Origin: Acarospora socialis
Taxonomy: Eukaryota > Ascomycota > Lecanoromycetes > Acarosporales > Acarosporaceae
Direction of reading: 5' to 3'
Assembly: GCA_025617375.2 (NCBI GenBank)
Contig: JAMYGW020000013.1
Coordinates: 620,001 to 684,000 of the forward strand
DNA: 64,000 bases
A program made the translations under genes and the position numbers. Under the pieces are notes generated by a model. The model was not told the DNA's origin. It saw nothing but the letters and a program-made list of their open reading frames with translations, and ran no database searches. Positions within the stretch are counted from its first letter, which is position 1, and each line of letters opens with the position of its first letter. Below are positions 35,872-55,678 of the stretch, piece by piece.

Positions 35872-35972
35872 TGTCGAAAGTTGATGTTGTTGTTATTAAA
35901 ATCTAATACACAAAAAATCATGTTATCTACTAAAACACTAAGGAAGCAAGCATCTAGGCTCAATTTCTGACA
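35872..35972 (-). repeat. Left LTR of the outer element
   Basis: 101 bp, TGTC...GACA, direct repeat of 55289-55389. The differences from the right copy are transitions, mostly at former CpG sites. Confidence 0.85.
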
Positions 35973-36456
35973 CACCCCCTGAGTCAGACAGTCATGACTG
36001 CTAAAAACAAAGAAAAAACAGCCTGAAAACAGACAACTGACTATGTTTTGTAGCAATACTCTGTGCATAACACTCTATGCATAACATTTCATGCATAACA
36101 CTTCATGTGATCTATGTCTACATCCTGTGAACAACATCTCATGAATAACATTTCATGAACAACATTCTGTATGCTTATTCTGCATGCTTTATAACAATAG
36201 AATATTCTCATTATATCTCTTGTTCTGACTCTTATTCTTAAATCTCTGTTCTGAGTACTTCTGTTAGCATCTCTTCTCTTTATGTTCTGCTTTTTCACAG
36301 TAACTGCACTTCATTCTCTTCTTTTCACTCAGTAAATTCTGTAAAACAAAGATCATAGTTCTTTTTTCTTTCTTCATTCATAGATTCTTCTTCAGCATCA
36401 TTTTCATCATCTTTTCTGTCATCATATCATTCATAACACTTCAAATTTGTATGAGA

Positions 36457-36667
36457 TGTTGAGAAGTGCAATGTTCTAGCTGCTTTCATAGTCTTAGTTG
36501 AAACTAACATCAGAAGTTGCTCATTATTCATATAGTCTGCATAACAGAGTATATAAATAGACAATCTCTACAATTCACATCAATCATGATCAGATTGACA
36601 GTGTACATTTCATTAAATAGACAGTTAGTCAGCAGTATAGCACAAGTATTTTTTTTATTTCTCAATA
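36457..36667 (+). repeat. 5' LTR of the copia element
   Basis: About 211 bp beginning TGTTGAGAAGTGC; direct repeat of 54447-54655. Confidence 0.8.
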
Positions 36668-38861: not shown

Positions 38862-41800
38862 TGTAACATTCTAACCTGAGATTTCTTGAGTATGTAGAGC
38901 TAAGAGTTTATGCTTATTGATATAACAGCTGGTCTGAAACAGTTCTGAACTTTAACTCTTAGATAGTTATTTAAGTTGAATATGATTGTTTTCATAAGAA
39001 AAACAACTTTACTATATAGAATGTGCTTGACTTCTCTGTGTTGAGCACTCTTGATGTCTTGACATCTCAATGTTGAGAAATTGAGCTCTCAGCTCATCTG
39101 CTCATCATTAAGTTGTCACACTGTTACATGACTACTGTTCAGCAGTTTCTTCTGTACACATCTCAAGTGAACTTTTGATCACAGACTCATGAGTTTCTTT
39201 TCTTCTGAGTATGATTGTAACATCATTTTTTCTCTTCAGGTGCTAGTTCTCTAGAGTTTATTTAAGTAAGAGTATATAGCAATCTTCATTGTCAGCAACA
39301 ATGCTTTCTAAAAATTTCAATCATCTAAGAATTGCAAAGAAAATTCAACTCAGTGGTAGTCTTGTCATGTTTTCTTGTGAATTTTGTACTGCTTGTGATC
39401 TCAATTGCTTTGTCATGACTGGTGAAAGATCAAAATGTGATAAGTGTACTTGCTGCAGTCATTCATGCATTGCAGTTTCATGAGAGTCTCTCAACAGAAC
39501 TTGTCTTTCTCTTTAAAAGAAAATAAGTGATGCAAATGCAGTTCTTAATGCTCTTACTGTCAAGATAATGTGTCTTCAAAAGACTTTAAATCAAATGAAT
39601 TGTCATGTTGCACAGAAGATCAACTGTCTTGCTGTTGAACTTAATAGTGATAATGATGAAACTGAGAATGAAGATTCTCAAACAATGTCATAACTTGTTG
39701 ACTTGATGTTGTCATTCTTCTGAACTAATATTGACTTTTTTTCTTAAAATGTTGAAGCATTCTCACACAGTTCTTGAGATTCTCTCTGAATTTTCAGATA
39801 TTTTCTGAGATATTATAATCTTTTCACTTAATGAGATAGTAAACTTTTTCACTAATCATTCTCTTCTCTAAAATGTTCTTAACTTCATATTCTTTGTTGA
39901 GTTCAACAGATGTTTCAGTGATTTGAAGTGGTATGAACTGATTGCAGTGCTGTAGCATGAATGCATGAAATACTGAGTGTATTCTCATTTTCTTGAGTAA
40001 GTCTAGCTCATAGCTTAACTCTTTGATGTTTCATATGATCTTGAATGATTCAATGCTCTTGTTCTCTAGCTTCTTGCTCTTTTTCTTTATTTATATGTTG
40101 TTCATTCTTAGATATATCTTCTCTTCTTCTTCAAATGATTTTGTTTCTGTTATTCATTTTGTCTGCTGTCTGATCTGTTTTGTCAGATCTTGATGCAGTT
40201 TTTTCATCTGTGCAATATTTAGAATCACTTTTTGACTTTGTGATCTGTGTCTTTTGAGATCTTGTTATATCTCTGAGTTGTAGTCATAGTTCATATAGAA
40301 AGATGTTTCTCTCATGATCTTGTTCTTTGTGTTGTTGTATGCAAACTGTATCATTAATAGTAGTCATACTCAGTTGTTCTGACTCTTATTGACATAGTGT
40401 TTTAAGTATGTCTTCACTGTCTGATTCATTTGTTCACTTTGCTCATTCATTTGTGAGTGATATGTCATTAACATCTTGTGTTTTATCTCAAGTTCTGCTG
40501 TAAGCATTTTTCAAAACTTGCTTGTGAACAGCTTGTCTCTGTTGATGATAAACTCTTTTGATAGTTTGTGATTGCTAATCAATTCTCTTAGTATTGTATA
40601 TGTCAATATTGATGCTGTTGCAGTTTCTTTGAATGAAATGAACATCATGTACTTGGTCAATCTGTTCACTATGATCAATATACTGTCAAATCTTATTTTT
40701 CATGCTGAATTTCTTGATGATAATAACTTCATAATGAAGTTCATGATAACTGACTTTCATGATGCATTTAATGCATTTAGTCACATTACTTTGTCATACT
40801 GCTTGTCTCAGTTGATCTTATTTCTTCAGCATGAGTTGCACACAGCAATCATTTTGATGATTCAATTTCTAAAATTGCTAATGTTGCATCTTCTTCATAC
40901 TAAGTCTTTCATGTGTTTAACTTCTAGATGTTCTTCAGCTCTATTGTAGTGACATATTTTAATGAGTTCTTCATTCATCAAGAGAGCTTGCTTTATCTTG
41001 TATGTTGCTGCTAAGCTCTTCATGAGAATTTCATTGTTATCTTTGCTAAGAATTTCAGCATGTATCATTCATACACTCTCATGATCAGATCATCTGCTCA
41101 AAACATCTGCTTCATTATTCTTATTACTCTTCTTGTAATAAATCTGAAATTCATAATCTGTCAACTGCTCTGTTCAACAAATCTGTCATTGATTGAGTTG
41201 TTTTGTTGTTGCAAAGTTTCTCAGATTCTTGTGATCTGTATAGATCTGAATTGACTTGCTTGTCTCTGCAAAATAAGATCTTCAATCTTGCAGTGCTTTC
41301 ACTATTGCAAGAAGTTTCTTGTCATGAATCTCATATCTTTTCTTGAGTTCTGATAACTTTCTAGATCAATACACTATGAGTTTCTGCTGTTTTTTCTTGA
41401 TTTGATATAAGCATGCTTTTACTGTGAAATCTGAAGCATCAGTTTTCAGTGTTTTCTTGTATATTGAATTGAGTATTCTCAGATGTGTTATCTCACTAAG
41501 ACTTTTCTTTAATATGTGAAACACATTCTTCTGCTCTTTATCTCAATGCTATTTTTTGCTTTTGTGTGTCAAACACATTAGTGGTTTCACAATTCTTGCA
41601 TAGTTTGATACAAACTTTCAATAATAGTTCATCAATTCTAGAAAGATCTGTACTTTCTTGATTCTCTTTGATGTCAGTCAGTTTTTAACTGCTTTTATCT
41701 TTTTCAGATTCTTCTCAATCTGTTCAGATTGAATCACATAGTTTAGAAACTCAACTTTCTTGATCTCAAATCTGCTTTTTGACTTTTTCATGTACAGAGC

Positions 41801-44800
41801 TCTCTCATTGAGTCTTGTCAATATCTTGCACACATGTTCTCAGTGCTTCTCAAGATCTTCTGAATATATCAGAATATCATTAAGATATGTGATCACAAAA
41901 TCATCAAGGTATTCTCTCAATATGTCATTAATCAATCTCTGAAAGATGACTGAAACATTTTTTAGCTCAAATGACATAACAGTGTACTCATAATGTTCAT
42001 ATCTTGTTCTGAATGTCATCTTTCATTTTTTATCTTCTTTCATTCTAACTTGATAATAGACATTCTTAAGATCTAAACTCATAAATCACTTCATCTTTTC
42101 TAATCAGTCTTGCAGCTCTTCTATCAGCAGTAGAGAATAACTATCTTAATGAGTTATCTTGTTGAGCTGTCTGTAATTGACACATAGTTGCTTTCTGTTA
42201 TCTTTCTTTGATATAAACAGAATTGAATATTCTGCTGATGATTTTGATAATTTGATGAATTCTTTTTTCTGATTCTCATCAAGATAAGTTTTAACTTTCT
42301 TGAGTTGGTTCTTGCTCATTGAGTATAATAACATTCACTTAGGTTGCTTTCTGTTCAATAGTGATATCTTGTGATTTCATGACTTATGTTTCAATAAGCT
42401 CATTTTGAGTTGTTTGAAAATCTCATATGCATCTTTGACTGCACATATCTCTTTTGTGACTCAATCAATTTGTGAATTCTTTTTGCACAATCAAGACATC
42501 TCTAGCATTGCATCATATTCAATTGATTTCATAACATCAAACATGATCTCTTGTGAGTTTTCAAGAATTGAAACTTTCACACAGATTTTCTTGTTGATTC
42601 TTTCAATGACTTCATTTGTCATTTGTATGTGAAATGAACAGCACACTCATCATGTCTTTAATTTCAACATGTTGACTGTCTTTCAGCCCATGATATTACT
42701 GTTCACTTCAAAGTCTATTAATGTGTTGATTTGATGTTCATTGATTGTGATCTTGATTCATATTCAGTGATCATTGTCTTGTCTTTAAGATGTCACTAGC
42801 TTCTTGTTCTCTAGTCTTGTTGAGAAAGCTCTTTATTTTTTGACTCACTTAATCATTCAGCTCATCTTCAGAGTTCTTGAAATCATCTGAGTTTTTTTTC
42901 AATCATAAGATTCACATACTCTAGACTGTACTGCTCAATGTGTCTTTCTGAGTGTAGTCAGAGTTCATATTGATTGTACTTCATCTGCAACTGACTCTTC
43001 ATGATTTTTACTCTTTGCAGAAATTTGAGTGACATATATTTCTGCTGAAGATTCATCTGCCTTCATTCTGCATGGTATATTCTTCAGGTAAGCATATCTC
43101 AATCTTGTGACTCTTGATTTTTCACTCAAGAAATTTTGACATTGATTCTCTCATGACTGTTTGTATATCTCTCATTAGATCATCAAATTCTTTGCACATT
43201 TCTGCTTTCTGATTTCAAGTCTTTTTCTTCTGCATTGTATTATGATCTGATGTCATTTCTTTCTGAACACTTAGATCTTTTTTGATCTTTGCTTGATACT
43301 TTCTTGAGAACTCTGTCTCAGCATTGTTCAAACTTTCTTCTGTGAGTGTATCACTATCAGAAAATATTCATGATTCATCAATCTGAGATTCATGATCATC
43401 AGTCTCTTCAATGTCATCTTTGAGAATATTGTCTTCTTTCTCAGCATCAAGAACTCTTTTCTTAATAAGAATAGCTAATTCTTTCTTGTAGATTGATTGA
43501 CTCATTGCATTATATCTATTCTTCACATCTTTGCATGATTTCTGAAAGTATCATCTGACTTCATCTTTTGCATTCATATGTGCTCAGCACATATTGTCAT
43601 AACAGACTGTTCAACTCAGAGCATTATGCACTACACTTGATTTCTTCATCTTTGTTTTGATCATTACTGCTGCAATATTCTTTCTTTTCATCTGAGATCT
43701 GTTGCACTCTTGAACAAGATGTTCAAGTTTTTCACAGTTATAACACATTTACATCTTGTTTCATGATGTTGTCTAAGACTTAGTGAATCACTCTGTCTGA
43801 CATTCAGACTTTATTTATTTAGTCTTTTATGACTTCTGACAGCACTTCTCAATTATATTGAGATTCATAGAGTTTGTTTCTCTATATCTCATCAGTGAAA
43901 CATATTGCTTCACTCACAGTTAAAAGCTTTCTTCTTGATCTTCTATCATAGATGATATTCAATATTTCTTGTGTTTCATCTGTCATTCTCACTGATGACT
44001 GTCAATATTGATACTCAGATCAATCATTTTCTGAAGATTGTCTGATTGTTTTGCTCTGACTATCTTGTCTTTGATGAACTTTCTCAACTCATAATAATAC
44101 TGATAGATGAGTGCTTCATTGTCTCATCTAATGAGTGTCACTAATTGCTGAAACTCTGTGATGTATATCATCACTGATTCATTCTGTCACAAGATGTAAA
44201 CTCATTTCTTTGCTGCTCTTTTCTCATCAATCACTCTGAAGACTTTCTTGAGTTTTTTCTTGAACTTGTCAAAGTCATTGAACATGAACTCTATGTCAGC
44301 ATTGTGTTTGTTGTAACTTTCTTCTAAAAACTCATGTAGCTTGAAGTTAACTCAATCAAAGACTGTGTTCACTAGATAGATTGTTGCAAACAATGTTTTC
44401 TCTTGATTGATTTGAAACTTTAATTGATTGAGTTCAATATACAGATCAAGCTTAGTCACAAAGACTCACAGCTTTTCTCATTCTTCATCAAAGATATCAG
44501 GTACCTGAATCTTCAGTGCATTTGCAGATAGTTGTATTATCTGAATTGACATCACTGATTGTGTCATCATTCTATCTGAAGTAGATGATAAAGATGAGTT
44601 CACTTGAGCTTGTTTCAAGAACAAGATTGAGATGTTCTTCTGTGTGTCAGACATCATACTTATTATATTGTAAGAGTGTTCAAAGTGTAACATTCTAACC
44701 TAAGATTTCTCAGATATGTAGAACTAAGAATTTATGCTTGTTGATATAACAGCTGGTCTGAAACAGTTCTGAACTTTAATTCTTAAATAGTTACTTAAGT

Positions 44801-45046
44801 TGAACACAATTGTTTTCATAAGAGAAATAACTCTACTATATAGAACATGCTCAACTTTTCTGTGTTGAGCACTCTTGATGTTTTAATGTCTCAATGTTGA
44901 GAGATCAAGCTCTCAGCTCATCTGCTCACCATTGAGTCATTGCACTGTTACATAATTACTGCTCAGCAGTTTCTTCTGTATGCATCTTGAGTGAACTTTT
45001 AATCATAGACTCATGAGTTTCTTCTCTTCTGAGTATGATTGTAACA
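38862..45046 (-). mobile_element. Ty3/gypsy chromovirus copy 1 (fossil)
   Basis: 361-bp LTRs lie at 38862-39222 and 44686-45046 (TGTAACA...TGTAACA as read on +), with flanking ACTTA and GCTTA. On the minus strand the order is gag with CCHC knuckle (about 43.7-44.7 kb), reverse transcriptase (about 41.7-42.4 kb, KNQLKKVKTYLDEN and QLCVNYRQLNKIT visible), RNase H, integrase (about 40.0-41.2 kb) and a chromodomain-like end (about 39.8 kb). About 6.2 kb, full length but broken dozens of times. An extra reading frame lies on the opposite strand at 39301-39692. It matches copy 2 along its whole length in inverted orientation. Confidence 0.88.
39301..39692 (+). other. Antisense accessory frame of gypsy copy 1, Zn2Cys6-like
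   Basis: This frame is antisense to gag-pol, between integrase and the 3' LTR. From the ATG at 39301 it reads MLSKNFNHLRIAKKIQ, then a cysteine pattern C-x2-C-x6-C-x9-C-x2-C-x6-C (CEFCTACDLNC ... CDKCTCCSHSC), exactly the spacing of a Gal4-type binuclear zinc cluster. A helical, coiled-coil-like stretch (ANAVLNALTVKIMCLQKTL) and an acidic end follow. The matching region of copy 2 is 51911-52302 on the minus strand. It belongs to the fossil element and is not intact over its full length. Confidence 0.65.
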
Positions 45047-45062
45047 GCTTAGAACAAATTAA

Positions 45063-45376
45063 TGTATACACATGAAGAGTATATATCTAAAGAAAAGTTT
45101 AGACAGCAGTCATGTGATATCTTGACATGCTTAATAATGAGCTTGATGAGCAAGCTTGACAGATTGCATAAACAAGTCATCTTAATGAGCTTGACAACAA
45201 GATCAGCAAGCAAACTCACTATATAGTAGAATCATTTTTCTTATGAAAACAATCATGTTCAACTTAAATAACTATTTAAAAGTTAAAGACCAGAACTGTT
45301 TCAGACCAGTTATTATATTAATAAGCACAAACTCTTAGCTTTACATACTCAAGAATGCTCAGATTAGAATGTTATA
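45063..45376 (+). repeat. Diverged gypsy solo LTR (partial)
   Basis: The right part (about 45215-45376) clearly matches the last half of the 361-bp gypsy LTR in plus orientation; the left part is much more diverged. No internal region is attached and no target duplication is visible. It probably came from an older or related family inserted in the copia body. Confidence 0.6.
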
Positions 45377-46567
45377 CAAAAACACACTGTAAGTGAGCAG
45401 AAGATCAACATTTTTATTTTGATTTTCATTAATATATACAATTTTTTATTTCTGTCATTTACTGAACATCAGTACTTTCTGAAGATTGTGAACAATTATT
45501 TTTGAAAGATATAAACAATATTGTTAAAGTAATGTGATAATGTTTCACAGAAACTGCAAAAGTAATAATTAAAGATTGAGCTTCAGATCAGTGTGAGAAT
45601 GCTTGCTGTATAAAGTGATAATATCACAAAATTAAGATTAATTCTGAATGACTGATGCAAATTTTTTAACATTATATTGCAGTACACTGTGCTTTACATA
45701 TTTATTCAAAATAATATTGTTGAAAAAGTCATCTGTATCACTGAGAATTTAATATACATCATGATTAAGAAAACAAAACTTTCAATAAAGTTTTAAGTGA
45801 AGACAGCATGAACAAATGTTTATTTTTGCAACTGAACAACAACTGATTTTTTAATCAATAGTAAATAAATAACTTTGAAGAAGATCTTCACTGATGTGTA
45901 GCTGTTTATTGATTACATTTGTGTTTAAAATTGCAAATGTTACTTCTATATTGATCTCAAGTTGTTGCTGAAGAACAGACAGAATAAGTTCATAAATTAA
46001 GAATGAGTGAGAATTTTTGTAAACTATATGAATAAAATCACAAAACAGTATCTGCTTTAAATCTCAGATCTTAAGTGAATCATCAAAAGTTATGTTGTAA
46101 AGTTTGTTAAGAATGAGAAGAAAGACAGTGTTAATCTTAAACTACAAAGATAAATGTTGAATATTTTGTCTGAATAAAAGTTAGTTAAGTAATCATGAAA
46201 AAATGCAGTCATCATAAATTCTGCAGCATTTACAACTCTGTTTACTGTCTTTAAGCAGATTTACAAATTCAAACTCATGAGTTCAGATAACAAAGAAGAG
46301 TTTAAGTTGACTGTAAACAATTTTGATATATTTTCATCAGATATTTATATGATAAATAAATTAACTATAATTAACTCAAACAGATCACAGACAAATGAAT
46401 AGAATAAAATTAAGCAGTTTTTACATATTGAAGTTTCTGTCAGCAAAGTATTTAATATTTTAACTGAGAAAGTTAAGACATTCTTATGTGTTGAGATTTT
46501 GAAGAGAAAATGAAACAATAATAATGAAGATTTTAATAAGTTCATAATTAAGATATCATGAACTATG

Positions 46568-49500
46568 TGTTACAATCATACTGAAAAAAAAAGAAACTCA
46601 TGAGTCTGAGATCAGAAGTTCACTCAGAGTGTGTATGAGAAAAACTGCTAGACAGCAGTCACATAATGATGTAACAGCTCAACAGTGAGTAAATGAGTCA
46701 AGAACTCAATTTCTCAACATTAAGACATCAAAACATCAAGAGTGCTCAATGCAGAGACATTAAGCACATTCTATATAGTAGAGTTGTTTCTTTTATGAAA
46801 ACAATCATGTTTAACTTAAGTAATCATCTAAGAGTTAAAGTTCAGAATCATTTCAGATCAGCTGTTATATCAATAAGCACAAACTTTTAGTTCTACATAC
46901 TCAAGAAATCTCAGATTAGAATGTTACACTTTGAATATTCTTACAATATAATGAGTATGATATCTGACACACAGAAGAATGTCTCAATCTTATTTTTGAG
47001 ACAAGTTCAGATAAACTCATCTTTATCATTTACTCTGAGTAGAATAATAATACAATCAGTGATGTCAGCTCAGATAATACAGTTATCTATGAGTGCATTC
47101 AAGATTCAGATATTCAATATCTTTGATGAAGAATGAGAAAAGCTATGAGTCTTTGTGATTAAGTTCAATCTGTATATTGAATTCAATCAATTAAAGTTTC
47201 AAACTGATCAAGAGAAAACATTGTTTGCAACAATTTATCTAGTGAATGCAGTCTTTAATTGAGTTAATTTCAAGCTGCATGAGTTTTTAGAGAAGAAGTA
47301 TGAGAAGTGCAACATCAATATGAAGTTCATGTTCAATGACTTCAGCAAGTTCAAGAAGAAACTCAACAAGATCTTTGAAGTGATTGATGAAGAAAGAACA
47401 GCAGAGAAACAAGTTTATATCTTGTGACAGAATGAATCAGCAACAGTATACATCATAGAGTTTCAGTGATTAGCAGCACTTATCAGATGAAATAATAAAG
47501 CACTTATTTATCAGTACTATTGTGAACTGAGAAAGTTCATCAAAGACAAAATAGTTCAAGCAGAACAATCAGACAATCTTCAGAGAATGATTAATCTGAG
47601 CATCAACATTGACAGTCATCAATGAAAACAACAAATGAAACAAAAAAAATATCAAATGTCATCTATGATAGAAGGTCAAGAAGAAAGCTTTTAACTGTGA
47701 ATAAAGTGATATGTTTCATCAATAAAACATAGAAAGACAGACTCTATGAATCTCAATATGATCAAGAAGTGCTGTCAAAAGTCATGAAAAACTAGATGAA
47801 TAAAGTCTGAACATCAAACAGAGCAATTCACTAAGTCTCAGATAACACTGCAAAACAAGATGCAAATGTGTTATAACTGTAAAAAACTCAGACATCTTGT
47901 CTGAGAATGCAACAGATCTCAGATAAAAAAAAGAAATATTGCAACAGTAATGATCAAAACAAAGATGAAGAAATCAAGTGTAGTGCATGACACTCTGAGT
48001 TGAACAATCTATTATGACAATATGTGCTGAGCACATATGAGTGCAAAAGATAAAGTCAAATGATATTCTCAAAAACTGCACAAAGACATGAAGAATGAAT
48101 ATGACCTGATGAGTTGATCAATCTACAAAAAAAAATTAGCTACTCTTATCAAGAAAAGAGTTCTTGATGCTGAGAAAGAAGAAAATGTTCTTAAAGATAA
48201 TATTGAAGAGACTGATGATCATGAATCTCAGATTGACAAATCATGAATATTTTCTGATAGTGATACACTCACAGAAGAAAGTTCAGACAATATTGAGACA
48301 GAATTCTCAAAAAAGTATTAAACAAAGATTGAAGAAGATCTAAGTGCTCAGAGAAAAGAGACACAACACAAGAATGTGAAAACATAAAAGACATATGATC
48401 AGCTAGAAGAGCTGATGATAGTTGTTAAAGACAAATGTCTCAGCAGTGATGATGTGACATTGTTTAAATTTCTTGTTTAAAAAACAAAGAGTCACAAGAT
48501 TGAGATATACTTATCTGAAGAATATATCATGCAGAATAAAGATAGATGAATCTTCAGTGAAGAGTATATATCACTCAAATTTCTGCAAAGAGTAAAAGTC
48601 ATTGAGAGTCAGTTGCAGATGAAGTACAATCAGTATGAATCTCAACTACATTCAGAAAGATGCATTGAGCAGTACAGTTTAAAATATGTGAATTTTATGA
48701 TCAGAAGAAAACTTAAATGATTTTAAGAACTTTGAAGATGAGCTGAACAACTGAGTGAGTCAAAAAATGAAAAGCTTTCTCAACAAAACTAAAGAATAAG
48801 AAGCTAGCAGTGTCTCAGAAACAAGATAAGAGTCATTGAATATGAATTAAGATCACAATCAATGAACATCAGATTAGTACATTGGTGAATTCTGAAGCAA
48901 ATGATAACATTATAAGTTAAAGAGTGATTAATATGTTGAAGTTAGTGACACAGTGAGTGTGCTGTTCATTTCACATATAAATGATAAACAGAGTTATTGA
49001 AAGAATCAATGAGAAGATTTGTGTGAAAGTTTCAATTCTTGAAATCTCACAAGAGATAATGTTCAACATTATGAGATCAATTGAATATGATGCAATGTTA
49101 AAAATGTCTTGATTATTCAAAAAGAATTCAAGAATCAATTGAGTCACAAAGAAAATATGCACAATTAAAGACACATACAAGATTTTCAAACAATCAGAAA
49201 TGAGCTTATCAGAGTATAAGTCATGAGATCACAAGATACTGTTATTGAATGAAAAGCAATTTAAGTGAATGTCATTATACTCAATGAGCAAGAATCAACT
49301 CAAGAAAGTTAAAACTTATCTTGACAAGAATCTGAAGAGAGAATTCATAAAATCATTAAAATCATTGACAGAATATTCAATTCTGTTCATATCAAAAAAG
49401 AATGACAAAAAACAACTATGTGTTGATTACAGACAGCTCAACAAGATAACTCATTAAGATAGTTATTTCTTATCACTGATAAAAGAGCTGCAAGACTGAT

Positions 49501-52500
49501 TAGAAAAGATGAAGTGATTCATGAGCTTAGATCTTAAAGACATCTATTATTAAGTCAGAATGAAAAAAGATAAAGAATGAAAAACAGCATTCTGAACACA
49601 ATACAGACATTATAAGTACATTATTATGTCATTTAAGCTGAAAAATGCTTCAGTCATCTTTCAGAGATTGATTAACAACATGTTGAGAGAATATCTTGAT
49701 AATTTTGTAATCACATATCTCAATAACATTCTGATATATTCAGAAGATCTTGAAGAGCACTGTGAACATATACACAAAATATTGACAAGACTCAACAAGA
49801 GAGCTCTGTACATGAAAAAGTTAAAAAGTAAATTTGAGATCAAGAAAGTCAGATTTCTAAACTATGTGATTTGATCTGAACAGATCAAGAAAAATTCACA
49901 AAAAATAAAAGCAGTTAGAAACTGATCAACATCAAGACAGATCAAGAAAGTACAAGTTTTTCTAGAATTGATGAACTATTATTGAAAGTTTGTATCAAAC
50001 TATGCAAGAATTGTGAAATCACTGATGCATTTGACACACAAAAGCAAAAAATAACATTGAAATAAAGAGCAGAAGAATGCATTTCATGTATTAAAGAAAA
50101 GTTTTAGTGAAATGACACATCTGAGAATACTCAATTCAGTATGTGAGAAAACACTGAAAACTGATGCTTCAGATTTCACAGTAAAAGCATATTTATATTA
50201 AATTGAGAAGAAACAGCAGAGACTCATAGCATATTGATTTAGAAAACTATCAGAATTCAAGAAAAGATATGAGATTCATGACAAGAAACTTCTTGTGATA
50301 GTGAAGACACTACAAGATTGAAGACTCTATCTTACAAAAACAAGCAAGTCAATTCAGATCTACACAGATCACAAGAATCTGAGAAACTTCACAATGACAA
50401 AACAACTTAATCAATAACAGATTCATTGAGCAGAACAGTTGATAGATTATGAATTTCAAATTCATTACAAGAAAAATAATGAGAATGATGAAGCAGATAT
50501 CTTGAGTAGACAATCTGATCATGAAAGTGTACAGACAATACATGTTGAAATTTTCAGCAAAGATGACAATGAAATTCTCATGAAAAACTTAGCAGCAACA
50601 TACAAGATAGAACAAGCTTTCTTAATGAACAAAAAACTCATCAGAATATGTCATCACAACAGAATTGAAGAACATTTAGAAGTTAAATGTACTGAAGATC
50701 TAGTGTGAAGAAAACACAATGTTAACAATTTTAGAAATTGAGTCATCAGAATGATTGCTGTGTGCAATTCATGTTAAAGAAATAAGATCAATTAAAACAA
50801 ACAATATGATGAAGTAACAAGACTAGATGCATCAAATGCATCATAAAAGTCAGTTATCATGAACTTTATCATGAAGCTATCATCATTAAAGGATCTGACA
50901 TGAGAGATGAAATTCAATAATATATTGATTATAGTGAACAGATTGATCAAGTACACAATGTTCATTTTATTCAAAGAAATCACAACAGCATCAATATTGA
51001 CATACATGATACTAAGAGAATTAATTAGCAATCATGAACTATCAAAAGAATTTATCATTGACAGAGACAAGCTGTTTACAAGCAAGTTTTAAAAAACACT
51101 TACAGCAGAACTCAGAATAAAACATAAGATGTTAATGACATATTACTTACAGATAAATAAGCAAAGTAAATGAATGAATCAGACAGTAAAAACATACTTG
51201 AAACACTATGTCAATGAAAATCAGAACAACTGAGTACAGCTGTTATCAATGACACAGTTTGTGTACAACAACACAAGAAACAAAATCACAGAAGAGACAT
51301 CTTTCTATGTGAACTATGATTACAACTTAAAGATATGACAAGATTTCAAAGAACACAGATCACAGAGTCAAAGAGCAATTTTAAACATCACTCAGATGAA
51401 AAAACTGCATCAAGATCTGACAAAACAGATTAAACAGCAGACAGAACAAACAATAAAGACAAAATCATTCAGAAAAGAAAAAAGAGTATATTTGAGAACA
51501 AACAACATATAAACAAAGAAAAGAAGCAGAAAGCTAGAGAACAAAAGCATTGAATCATTCAAAATTATATGAAACATCAAAGAGTTAAGCTATGAGCTAG
51601 ACTTACTTAAGAAAATAAGAATACACTCAGTATTTCATGCATTCATGCTACAGCACTGCAATCAGTCTATATCACTTCAAATCACTGAAACATCTGTCAA
51701 ATTCAACAAAGAATATGAAGTCAAGAACATTCTAGAAAAGAGAATGATTAGTGAAAAAGCTCACTATCTCATCAAATGAAAAGATTATGATATCTTAAAG
51801 AATATCTGAGAACTCAAGAAGAATCTCAAGAACTGTGTGAGAACACTTCAATGTTTTGAGAAAGAAAGTCAATATTAGCTCAGAAGAATGACAACATTAA
51901 GTTAACAAGTTACAATATAGTTTGAGAATCTTCATTCTCAGTCTCATCATTATCACTATCAAGTTCAACAGCAAGACAATCAGTCTTCTGTGTGACATGA
52001 TGATCTGTTTAATTCAAAGTCTTTTGAAAACACATTATCTTGATGACAAGAGCATCAAGAATCACATTCACATCACTTATTTTCTTATGAAGAGAAAGAC
52101 AAGTTCTATTGAGAGACTTTCATAAGACTGCAATGCACAGACAATCATGATGAGTATACTTATTGTATTTCAGTCTTTCATCAATCATGACAAAGCAATT
52201 GAGACTGCAGACAGTACAGAATTCACAAGAAAACATGATGAGACTATCACTGAGTTGAATTTTCTTTGCAATTCTTAGACAATTGAAATTTTTAGAAAGC
52301 ATCATTGCTGACAATGAAATTGTTATATACTCTTACTTAAATAAACTCTAGAGAACTAGCACCTGAAGAAAAAGAATGATGTTATAATTATATCAAAAAA
52401 GAAAGAAACTCATGAGTCTGAGATCAGAAGTTTATCTGAAGTGTGTATGAAAAGAATTGCTAAACAGCAGTCACATAACAGCACAATGACTCAACAGTGA

Positions 52501-52740
52501 GCAGATGAGTCAAGAGCTCAATTTCTCAACATTGAGACATCAAAACATCAAGAATGCTCAATGCAGAGACATCAAGCACATTCTATATAGTAGAGTCATT
52601 TTTCTTATGAAAATGATCATGTTCAACTTAAATAATCATTTAAGAGTTAAAGTTCAGAACCATTTCAGACCAGTTATTATATCAATAAGCACAAACTCTT
52701 AGTTCTACATATCTGAGAAATCTCAGATTAAAACATTACA
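46568..52740 (+). mobile_element. Ty3/gypsy chromovirus copy 2 (fossil)
   Basis: 361-bp LTRs lie at 46568-46928 and 52380-52740, with a perfect 5-bp duplication CTATG on both sides. Order on the plus strand: gag with CCHC knuckle (near 47.87 kb), protease region, reverse transcriptase (about 49.27-49.87 kb; ILIYSEDLEEHCEH visible), RNase H, integrase with an HHCC-type finger (about 50.6-51.5 kb) and a chromodomain-like segment (about 51.70-51.84 kb), which places it among chromoviruses. It is full length and broken dozens of times. The antisense Zn2Cys6-like frame is at 51911-52302 on the minus strand, more decayed than in copy 1. Confidence 0.9.
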
Positions 52741-54446
52741 CTATGCTGATATTCATGATGTTTATTGTAGATGATGAGAAAGATACTAAGAATGTTAAAT
52801 TTAATATTTTCACATTTATTATCTATGCTAAAGTAGTGAGAGATTCAGTCTGAAAAAAGAAGTAAAAAAATGCTATTTATGCAGAATTAATGATTTTGAC
52901 AGTCAACAGAACATAAAAAGAAATTGTATCATCAAAGAATGTAAACATAATGATCAGCAAGTGAATATTTAAATTTAAGCTGAATATTAATGAATTTCTG
53001 AACAAGTTCAAGATAAGAATTATAATGAGAAATTTTTTACAAATGTATAACATTAATTATAAGAACATCTTTGCATCTACAGTTAAGTTCAACACTTTTT
53101 GAGTCTTTCTTGTCATTGTTGTTCTTGAGAATCTTGAATATTATTAAGTAAATATCAACAATATTTTCATAAAATTCTTTCTTAAAAAGATCATCTACAT
53201 GACAGTTTTTTCTGAAGTTCAAGTTGCATCTAACTGTGTACTGTGTATATTGTGTAGTCTTTATGATCTGAAGTAAATTGTGTAAAATTAACATAAATGA
53301 TGTATCACTAATCTGTGCAAACTAAACTTTCATTAAAACAATATTGACTTATATCTTCTCATCAACAGCATTAAAAGAATCATATTGCTTCTTTATGTAA
53401 ATAATATAATTGTAGTTTCAGCAAATCTGACACACATTTTCTGATTTAAGAAAGCTTTTGTGAAGATGTTCAAAGTTAAGAACTTAAAGAAGACACAGAA
53501 AATTCTTGACATACAAGTTATATATAATTGTAAGAAAAGAATTCTATGTCTAAATCAGACTCATTATGTGAATAAGATGCTGAAAAATCTTTATATGTAA
53601 TTTCACAAGCACAAGATCATGACAATTTCACTCAATGAATATAATGTTTTTTGTTTCACTGATTCAGCTGATCAAAAAATAGATTAAAAATAATATCAAT
53701 ATGTAATTGAAAGTCTGATGTATACAGTGATTCATATTTAATCAGACATTATCTTTGTTCTAAATTAACTAAGTCAGTATTTTAGTGATTCTGCAGAGCA
53801 TTATAAATATGTGTTTAAGAAACTGCTGCAATATGTGAGATTAATCATTAATTTTGACATTGTATATAAATTTAATGAAAGTCAAATCATACTTAAATAC
53901 TCTGACTTCAACTATGCATCAGACAAACAAAATTGAAAGTCAATTCTGAAACATATATACATACTTGAAGACAAATCAGTATTATGAATAAGTTAAAAAC
54001 AGAAGTCTGTTATTATCTTAATTATAGAAACTAAATACATAATTATATTAATATATGCAAAAACTGAGATCTGATTTACACAGATGCTGTAAAATATGAA
54101 TATAAACAAATATTTTAAAGATAATTCATACTGTGTGAACATCAAGAAAAATAAAGCTCATTGAGCAGTCTCATTTCTTCAACTCAAGAAAGACAATCAG
54201 ACTATTTTAATTCTGATTAAGAATGCATATGTGCATGAATAATCAAAATATATTAACATTATTTATCATCATATCTGTAATCTGCACAAGCAAAATCAGA
54301 TTGATGTGAATTTTGTATTTAATTAAGACATGATGACTGATGAACTAATTAAGTTCTTATTTAAATGAATCTTTAAGTGCTTTGTTGAATAACTGAAACT
54401 TACTGTTAATAAAAGTCAATAGATGCAGCATCACTGAGTGAAAATG

Positions 54447-54655
54447 TTAAGAAGTGCAGTGTTTTAGCTGCTTTCATAGTCTTAGTTGAGATTAACATCA
54501 GAAATTACTCATTATTCATATAGTCTGTATGACAGAGTATGTGAATAAACAATCTCTACAATTTATGTTAATTATGATCAGATTAACAGTGTATGTTTCA
54601 CTAGATAGACAGTTAGTCAGTAGTATAGCATGAGTATTCTTTTTATCTTTCAATA
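54447..54655 (+). repeat. 3' LTR of the copia element
   Basis: About 209 bp beginning TGTTAAGAAGTGC. It differs from the 5' LTR almost only by transitions. Confidence 0.8.
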
Positions 54656-55288: not shown

Positions 55289-55389
55289 TGTCAAAAGTTG
55301 ATGTTGTTGTTATTAAAATCTAATACACGAAAAATCGTGTTATCTACTAAAACACTAAGGAAGCGAGCGTCTAGGCTCAATTTCTGACA
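55289..55389 (-). repeat. Right LTR of the outer element
   Basis: 101 bp, followed by CAATA, the second target-duplication copy. On the minus strand the sequence just inside the LTR starts GGTTATGAGCCCAG, where a primer-binding site would lie. Confidence 0.85.
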
Positions 55390-55678
55390 CAATATAGACT
55401 ACATAGAAATCAAATTTGATACAGCAAAACAATTAAACTCTTACAGTGCTATGCAAAAGTCGTGAGGTTCCGTCTCGAATAACCATTCAACAAACTTGAG
55501 CTTTCCATTCTACCCCACCTGATGTAGCTATGACGTCTTGGGGACGGATGAGTTCAAATAATTGCAGATACATATATATGTCGAATACACTGGACTATCA
55601 TCAATAGTCTTGATTGACGACTTGAGTATCATCAGGCTTATCACAGAACTCCCGGGCTACTCTTTTCACTCCATCGTC
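55390..55678. other. Host DNA right of the block
   Basis: Starts with the CAATA target duplication. Composition returns to GC-balanced, CpG-containing DNA within about 100 bp. No gene is seen before 55679. Confidence 0.5.

Follow-up and report, generated by a model that had tools for sequence, protein, structure and literature searches.

Long terminal repeat (LTR) retrotransposons have for years been known to carry antisense accessory genes, but no clear function has been assigned to these. In fungi, the gene brtn of Boty was published by Zhao et al. in 2011 (cited here through PMC8365987, PMC7264820, PMC4227169 and PMC5987419), and the Boty-like elements of Botrytis cinerea and Sclerotinia combine a chromodomain in gag-pol with an extra gene that lies antisense in the interval separating pol from the 3′ LTR (PMC7264820, PMC8365987, PMC4227169). 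The gene considered here occupies the same place in a high-copy fungal chromovirus that is present in two copies within a stretch of 64,000 nucleotides from Acarospora socialis (GenBank assembly GCA_025617375.2, contig JAMYGW020000013.1, positions 620,001 to 684,000 of the forward strand). This whole stretch is referred to as the window and all coordinates are positions within it. The gene would encode a small protein with six cysteines spaced as in the Gal4-type Zn2Cys6 factors, followed by a predicted coiled coil and an acidic end.

Outside the fungi, conserved antisense open reading frames (ORFs) between pol and the 3′ LTR are described for the plant elements Retand and Grande (PMC11963269, PMC7264820). 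DNA binding and a regulatory role have been proposed for the TRP28 ORFs of Retand (PMC11963269), and a nuclear role for gene23 of Grande (PMC7264820). Unlike the present element, Retand as described belongs to a plant, non-chromovirus lineage with 2.9–6.6 kb between pol and the 3′ LTR, as opposed to about 0.5 kb here, and its antisense ORFs encode a TRP28 domain instead of a cysteine cluster; Grande is likewise a plant element. In HTLV-1, the antisense gene of the nuclear regulator HBZ is expressed from an antisense promoter in the 3′ LTR (PMC11963269, PMC7264820). The likeness to HBZ is one of analogy, namely an antisense protein gene at the 3′ LTR, since the protein is unrelated, belongs to an animal retrovirus and has no zinc cluster. 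HBZ dimerizes through a coil of the bZIP type. The original prediction, made from the letters of the window, had placed antisense extra genes in plant gypsy lineages; this is too narrow, as the fungal brtn has been in print since 2011.

An antisense gene at this position is therefore already known, and the version with a zinc cluster appears from its sequence to be a new variant. No zinc cluster in an antisense gene of an LTR element was recognized among the matches listed in searches of titles and abstract openings in the open-licence literature. The chance that the gene is simply the BRTN family of the Boty-like elements, already described apart from its zinc cluster, is put a little below even; this alternative concerns novelty and is compatible with the functional readings weighed below. 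Place and orientation are the same (PMC7264820), and in Monilinia similarity to BRTN and to Pol was found on one transcript (PMC5987419). The passages on brtn considered here mention no zinc cluster; the likeness is one of described place and orientation. The family offers a concrete candidate function, in the form of a small protein that has a zinc-cluster layout, is under measurable selection and travels with one side of the LTR. If this is true, retrotransposons carry a typical fungal regulator architecture, and the gene, being short, antisense and easily overlooked in annotation, can serve as a marker for finding such elements.

Position and conservation of the antisense gene

The gene was observed in a constant position and orientation in all sampled copies of the element, under selection, with conserved cysteines, a coil of heptad steps and co-inheritance with one side of the LTR. 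In copy 1, the frame lies opposite gag-pol on the plus strand, as predicted, with its Met codon at 39301, 79 nt inside the inner boundary of the 3′ LTR, and a stop codon at 39691–39693. The predicted limits of 39301–39692 hold at the start but not at the end, since homology to protein relatives extends the frame to 39855, its last 45 codons or so lying opposite the chromodomain and the end of pol. The frame is not open, with two in-frame stops of the C-to-T type expected of repeat-induced point mutation (RIP) ahead of the stop at 39691–39693. The first 140 antisense codons lie beyond the pol stop, in the gap of about 0.5 kb between this stop and the LTR. Such a place, antisense to gag-pol in the interval between pol and the 3′ LTR, is that of an aORF-3R. 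The exact spacing C-x2-C-x6-C-x9-C-x2-C-x6-C noted for copy 1 was found at 39376–39468. Across all six frames of the window, the pattern C-x2-C-x6-C-x5-12-C-x2-C-x6-C matches nowhere else, and it was absent from all 2000 first-order Markov shuffles made of the element. The same frame had also been reported for copy 2; it is kept there (Met 52302, minus strand), with Tyr in place of cluster cysteines 4 and 5.

The genome (31.1 Mb, 38 contigs) was searched for the antisense gene with the relative P0001 as query, and 150 of 361 candidate places were scored. All 150 matched the gene (E ≤ 8.6e-38). The 85 best of these, less three that were skipped, gave 82 aligned copies, in which the codons of Cys 1 to 6 are kept in 82, 82, 81, 75, 58 and 71 copies, respectively, and all six together in 48. 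Nearly all of the losses (42 of 43) are to Tyr and one is to His. The start codon is ATG in 79 copies and ATA in three. The aligned copies form two subfamilies, A (43 copies, no insert) and B (39 copies, whose coil is longer by 21 or 42 nt).

To sample copies independently of the gene, 150 of 399 candidate integrase places were scored and each fourth one was taken. In each of the 38 copies so drawn, the antisense gene follows the integrase on the opposite strand (E ≤ 2.5e-32). Six cysteines are kept in 21 of the 38, with loops of 8, 9, 11 or 18 residues. Thirteen copies score lower, most of them belonging to a more distant group with an 18-residue cluster loop; eight of the thirteen keep six cysteines when loops of up to 20 residues are allowed, seven have the 18-residue loop, and in two the N-terminal part is damaged or missing. 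This third group, with a loop of about 18 rather than 8–9 residues, comprises L130, L136, L141, L144, L146, L152, L154, L158 and L160.

Three protein database searches gave 129 relatives, including unbroken proteins of 183–239 residues, and their annotation offers nothing beyond "hypothetical protein". Six cysteines are present in 25 of the 29 relatives that cover the cluster (35 aligned out of 110). The pattern itself matches 37 of the 129, many of which are fragments, with a loop of 8 (32 relatives), 11 (one) or 14 residues (four). Neither of the two outcomes named beforehand as speaking against the original prediction came about. In the relatives P0009, P0010, P0012 and P0030, the reading frame extends without a stop past the usual Met on its upstream side, perhaps into the LTR.

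Evidence for coding selection

Copies 1 and 2 lie in opposite orientation, are degraded by mutation and share 84% identity. Over 39301–43000 they differ by 571 transitions and 20 transversions. This excess points to mutation of the RIP type, with the caveat that CpA is not dominant among the C-to-T differences (CpG 193, CpT 168, CpA 130 and CpC 80, both strands). Since such mutation yields transitions, transversions were used for the selection tests. The DNA of open relatives was confirmed neither in viral contigs (nine pattern-matching stretches) nor in prokaryote contigs (136 stretches), and the ratio of nonsynonymous to synonymous change (dN/dS) was therefore calculated on the degraded copies with transversions only. 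Owing to the subfamilies, neither the sites of the phase test nor the pairs between subfamilies are independent, and the p-values are to be taken as guides.

Of the 140 sites at each antisense codon position, transversions affect 24 at position 3, 14 at position 1 and 7 at position 2 (p = 0.008); stricter thresholds give 21/11/7 (p = 0.02) and 19/9/7 (p = 0.03). The same count in the LTR plus leader is 12/17/16 of 51/49/51. The coil and acidic end are the main source of the signal (13/5/2, p = 0.008). Between subfamilies, with the single copy that has two inserts excluded from B, the dN/dS of the antisense frame is 0.35, the lowest of the six frames; the other five range from 0.74 to 3.07. A binomial check of this result gave 0.010, the averages (8.84 of about 29) being rounded to 9 of 29. 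In the pol control, where each pair offers about 6.6 transversions, the lowest value belongs to the pol frame (0.47 versus 0.87–1.21). Like an aORF-3R, the gene is thus present in most copies (38 of 38) and conserved to the extent of other element genes (0.35 versus 0.47 for pol). The check for purifying selection that had been proposed for less mutated relatives was made here on degraded copies of the same genome. Within the 140-codon section only two indel lengths occur, namely 3 nt in 39 copies and 21 nt in 38 (plus one copy with two 21-nt inserts), whereas the leader has indels of 1 and 2 nt.

Several results weigh against reading these data as the record of a working protein gene. In-frame stops are found in all 150 scored copies. 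The zinc part alone (39301–39480) has no significant phase (11/9/5, p = 0.33). Nor does the stretch of pol taken as a comparison have one at the main threshold (19/19/15, p = 0.74); a lean towards pol third positions shows only at stricter thresholds (7 of 13 sites, p = 0.23, and 5 of 7, p = 0.10). Two or three events, common to about 39 copies, probably account for the 3- and 21-nt indels.

An open frame due to chance, or a by-product of an overlapping sense gene, is nevertheless very improbable. Chance is ruled out by the rarity of the pattern, the codon-phase test and the six-frame dN/dS. An origin as a by-product of pol is accepted for the last 45 codons or so, opposite the chromodomain, where variation follows pol (0/0/4 sites, all of them pol third positions). 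It is ruled out by codon phase and dN/dS for codons 1–140, which lie beyond the pol stop and opposite three sense frames with values of 2.17, 0.74 and 2.38, as compared to 0.35 for the antisense frame. The comparisons between copies therefore support a frame that behaves as a real antisense gene of the element family, and the original claim to this effect is borne out by the 38 sampled copies, the selection tests and the shuffles.

The zinc cluster

Clusters of the Zn2Cys6 family (PF00172) are spaced as C-x2-C-x6-C-x5-12-C-x2-C-x6-8-C. Copy 1 agrees exactly, and the 18-residue loop of the third group lies outside the 5–12 range. Like the Gal4-type factors, the protein has the six-cysteine spacing, a linker, a coil directly after the cluster and an acidic region. 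It differs from them in that its first loop is non-basic, its Pfam score is below the cut-off and its length is only about 180 residues, and it is encoded by a retrotransposon, antisense to pol. A comparison by hhalign of the family profile with six Zn2Cys6 sequences of solved structure scored 33.0 (probability 73%), while 200 column shuffles, which were the controls in place of another cysteine-rich family, reached at most 16.4. In the second of two AlphaFold models a short helix follows each cysteine pair (27–32 and 48–51), as in Zn2Cys6 domains, within a region whose block means are only 48–59.

A number of observations count against a regular DNA-binding cluster. The best Pfam score for Zn_clus, which was found in 8 of 35 members, is 19.0 bits and falls below the curated cut-off of 21. 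The window frame itself matched no Pfam family, and a Pfam scan of ten relatives gave one weak match of 13.5 bits. In some members unrelated Pfam families score better (HrpB7, 5e-4; TetR_C_19, 9e-4). The loop between Cys 2 and Cys 3 holds no more than one Lys or Arg in all 37 patterned relatives and none in 21 of 21 copies from this genome; the solved structures of Gal4, Lac9, Hap1, Put3, Cep3 and Pho7 have three to five. Loss of Arg codons by C-to-T mutation may explain part of this difference. The AlphaFold block means of the zinc region are 47–60 in the two models, and Foldseek with the first model returned no matching chain. Searches of NCBIfam and of the PDB by sequence gave nothing or weak matches only, mostly to coils. 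The original prediction, by which the frame has exactly the layout of a DNA-binding region of the fungal binuclear zinc-cluster type, is not supported in that form, given the non-basic loop and the Pfam score.

Since the Pfam cut-off is not reached and the loop is non-basic, the cluster is described as Zn2Cys6-like, not canonical, and is not filed as a member of PF00172. The antisense protein may still bind DNA, since Pho7 does so without the contact made by Lys18 of Gal4 (PMC5559640). In Pho7, the cluster cysteines and two conserved arginines are described as mattering in vivo (PMC5559640).

The same observations raise the alternative of a real antisense protein whose cluster is a structural or protein-binding zinc module, acting for example on integrase, chromatin or a ribonucleoprotein, and not a sequence-specific DNA binder. 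The cysteines and coil are kept while the DNA-contact loop is non-basic in 37 of 37 relatives, and the low Pfam score points the same way; the Pho7 precedent (PMC5559640) and the change of the zinc and coil part along with one LTR side, described below, point away. On balance, a module of this kind is considered a serious but rather unlikely alternative.

Coiled coil and acidic end

The coil and acidic end that had been noted after the cluster were confirmed. The anchors of the coil are 28, 35 or 42 residues apart in all 35 relatives measured, which are exact heptad steps, and the 21-nt indel corresponds to one heptad. Hydrophobic residues recur with a period of 3.55, and 11 of 5000 permutations reached the signal at period 3.5. 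AlphaFold placed helices at 67–135 and 60–126 in the two models (69 and 67 residues), with pLDDT mostly above 90. A coiled coil after the linker is thus supported by sequence and models, and the protein may form a dimer through it. The 20 residues after the coil have a mean net charge of −5.4 (range −9 to 0; 107 of 129 relatives), and a hydrophobic segment comes next. One of the 82 copies, L013 (identical with L006, at G000:C18:72527-73099), carries a coil that is longer by two heptads (42 nt); the length of the coil therefore varies by heptad steps within this genome as well.

These features also bear on the alternative that what counts is the antisense RNA, acting through double-stranded RNA with gag-pol, through silencing or through self-limitation, and that the protein matters little. 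Such roles of the RNA are discussed for the plant genes (PMC7264820), but the selection at the amino acid level seen in codon phase and dN/dS, the indels in multiples of three only and the heptad steps already disfavor this alternative, and it is judged improbable.

Co-inheritance with one side of the LTR

The pieces from gag to RNase H of eight A and nine B copies were set against those of copy 1, with up to three of the 17 lacking a match over half a piece. The mean distance to copy 1 is 0.6–2.6% transversions, alike for A and B, although the C-terminal gag piece gave 1.1% for A and 2.2% for B. RNase H, integrase and chromodomain differ by 0.5–0.8% between and 0.2–0.5% within subfamilies (six A entries, one being copy 1 again, and four B). 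The LTR and the antisense gene were compared in 12 A and 10 B copies, that is, 20 of 80 fetched copies and the two of the window. Transversions between A and B amount to 25.5% in the inner LTR side, 17.3% in the leader, 12.4% in the zinc cluster and 11.2% in the coil. The outer LTR side (2.8%), polypurine tract (0.2%) and acidic end (0.6%) are nearly constant, and values within subfamilies for the same segments do not exceed 4.9%. Short conserved stretches also occur inside the differing block, such as 39302–39341 (0.5%). In 13 of 17 copies the 5′ LTR and the antisense gene are of the same type, although a single copy among these 13 has an additional 52-nt match to the other LTR type; one copy is ambiguous, three gave no match and none is opposite. 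From this divergence pattern and the concordance of the 5′ LTR, the inner LTR side and the zinc and coil half are inherited as a block.

The inner LTR side is presumably the promoter, and co-inheritance with it suggests that the gene regulates the element itself. It has to be set against this that the inner LTR side is contiguous with the antisense gene; one recombination tract therefore explains the co-inheritance without any function. Co-adaptation of a regulator and its LTR target would be the more interesting reading of the block than plain linkage.

Proposed role

The locus is read as what RIP-type mutation has left of an accessory gene, antisense to gag-pol in a Ty3/gypsy chromovirus, whose protein was a candidate DNA-binding regulator of its own LTR, a reading held at about an even chance. 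The gene and pol are arranged tail-to-tail, the gene occupying the interval up to the 3′ LTR. Given a start 79 nt inside the LTR boundary, its RNA must originate within the LTR or beside it and read in the direction opposite to gag-pol. The protein would pair through its coil, and the zinc cluster, if it holds zinc and contacts DNA, may bind the promoter side of its own LTR and tune transcription of the element in one direction or the other. A bolder version is more doubtful and must remain tentative. It holds that there is a class of LTR retrotransposons in fungi whose members each code for a sequence-specific zinc-cluster regulator of their own, read antisense from the 3′ LTR, as a counterpart of the HBZ type, and that the binding and dimerization half is swapped between elements together with the LTR promoter side that it reads, as a co-adapted cassette on a constant gag-pol. 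If true, these elements switch promoter and regulator together.

Host elements and feature coordinates

The assignment of the element to the chromoviruses was right, as its pieces matched the reverse transcriptase family RVT_1 (42.2 bits) and the chromodomain (26.5 bits) in Pfam. Reverse transcriptase, a C-terminal chromodomain, LTRs and target duplications are all present. The integrase piece matched no integrase family in Pfam, and the Ty3/gypsy gene order rests on position. Mutation of the RIP type, the AT-rich blocks and the kind of element would by themselves point to a fungus. The features are listed in Table 1.

Table 1. Coordinates of the two chromovirus copies and of the antisense gene in the window.
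Feature	Position	Strand	Remarks
LTR retrotransposon copy 1	38862..45046	gag-pol on minus	5-bp target duplication, one A/G difference
LTR retrotransposon copy 2	46568..52740	gag-pol on plus	perfect 5-bp target duplication
3′ LTR, copy 1	38862..39222	minus	antisense Met 79 nt inside its inner boundary
Inner side of 3′ LTR, copy 1	39012..39222	minus	putative U3/promoter side; differs between subfamilies with zinc and coil region
Polypurine tract adjoining 3′ LTR, copy 1	39223..39240	minus	putative, from sequence; conserved between subfamilies
5′ LTR, copy 1	44686..45046	minus	
Chromodomain and end of pol, copy 1	39725..39904	minus	PF00385, 26.5 bits, cut-off 25.1
Antisense accessory frame, copy 1	39301..39855	plus	stop-broken; full-length homology to 183-residue relatives
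N-terminal part of antisense protein	39301..39375	plus	5.6% transversions between subfamilies, below the cluster value
Zn2Cys6-spaced cluster C-x2-C-x6-C-x9-C-x2-C-x6-C (CEFC...SHSC)	39376..39468	plus	
Linker and coiled-coil region	39469..39636	plus	length varies by exact heptads in relatives
Acidic and hydrophobic end	39637..39720	plus	39612–39720: 0.6% transversions between subfamilies; possible activation-type role
Tail of antisense frame opposite chromodomain end of pol	39721..39855	plus	conservation attributable to pol
Antisense frame, copy 2	51748..52302	minus	4 of 6 cluster Cys kept; low end estimated from copy 1 length

An Rfam scan of the window gave no matches. An extra LTR-like piece of the same family lies between the two copies at 45126–45381, with an identity of about 60% across 256 nt that rises to as much as 88% within 149 nt. 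A direct repeat of 103 nt (35872–35974 and 55289–55391, 95% identical) flanks the entire AT-rich block. The genome holds this repeat at 15 places, with two further direct pairs at close spacings of about 0.7 and 1.2 kb, and it may be the terminal repeat of a short element resembling a terminal-repeat retrotransposon in miniature (TRIM), split by nested gypsy insertions. Within this pair lies an inner direct-repeat pair of 212 nt (36456–36667 and 54444–54655, 87% identical), and the nesting of one pair in the other suggests layered insertions.

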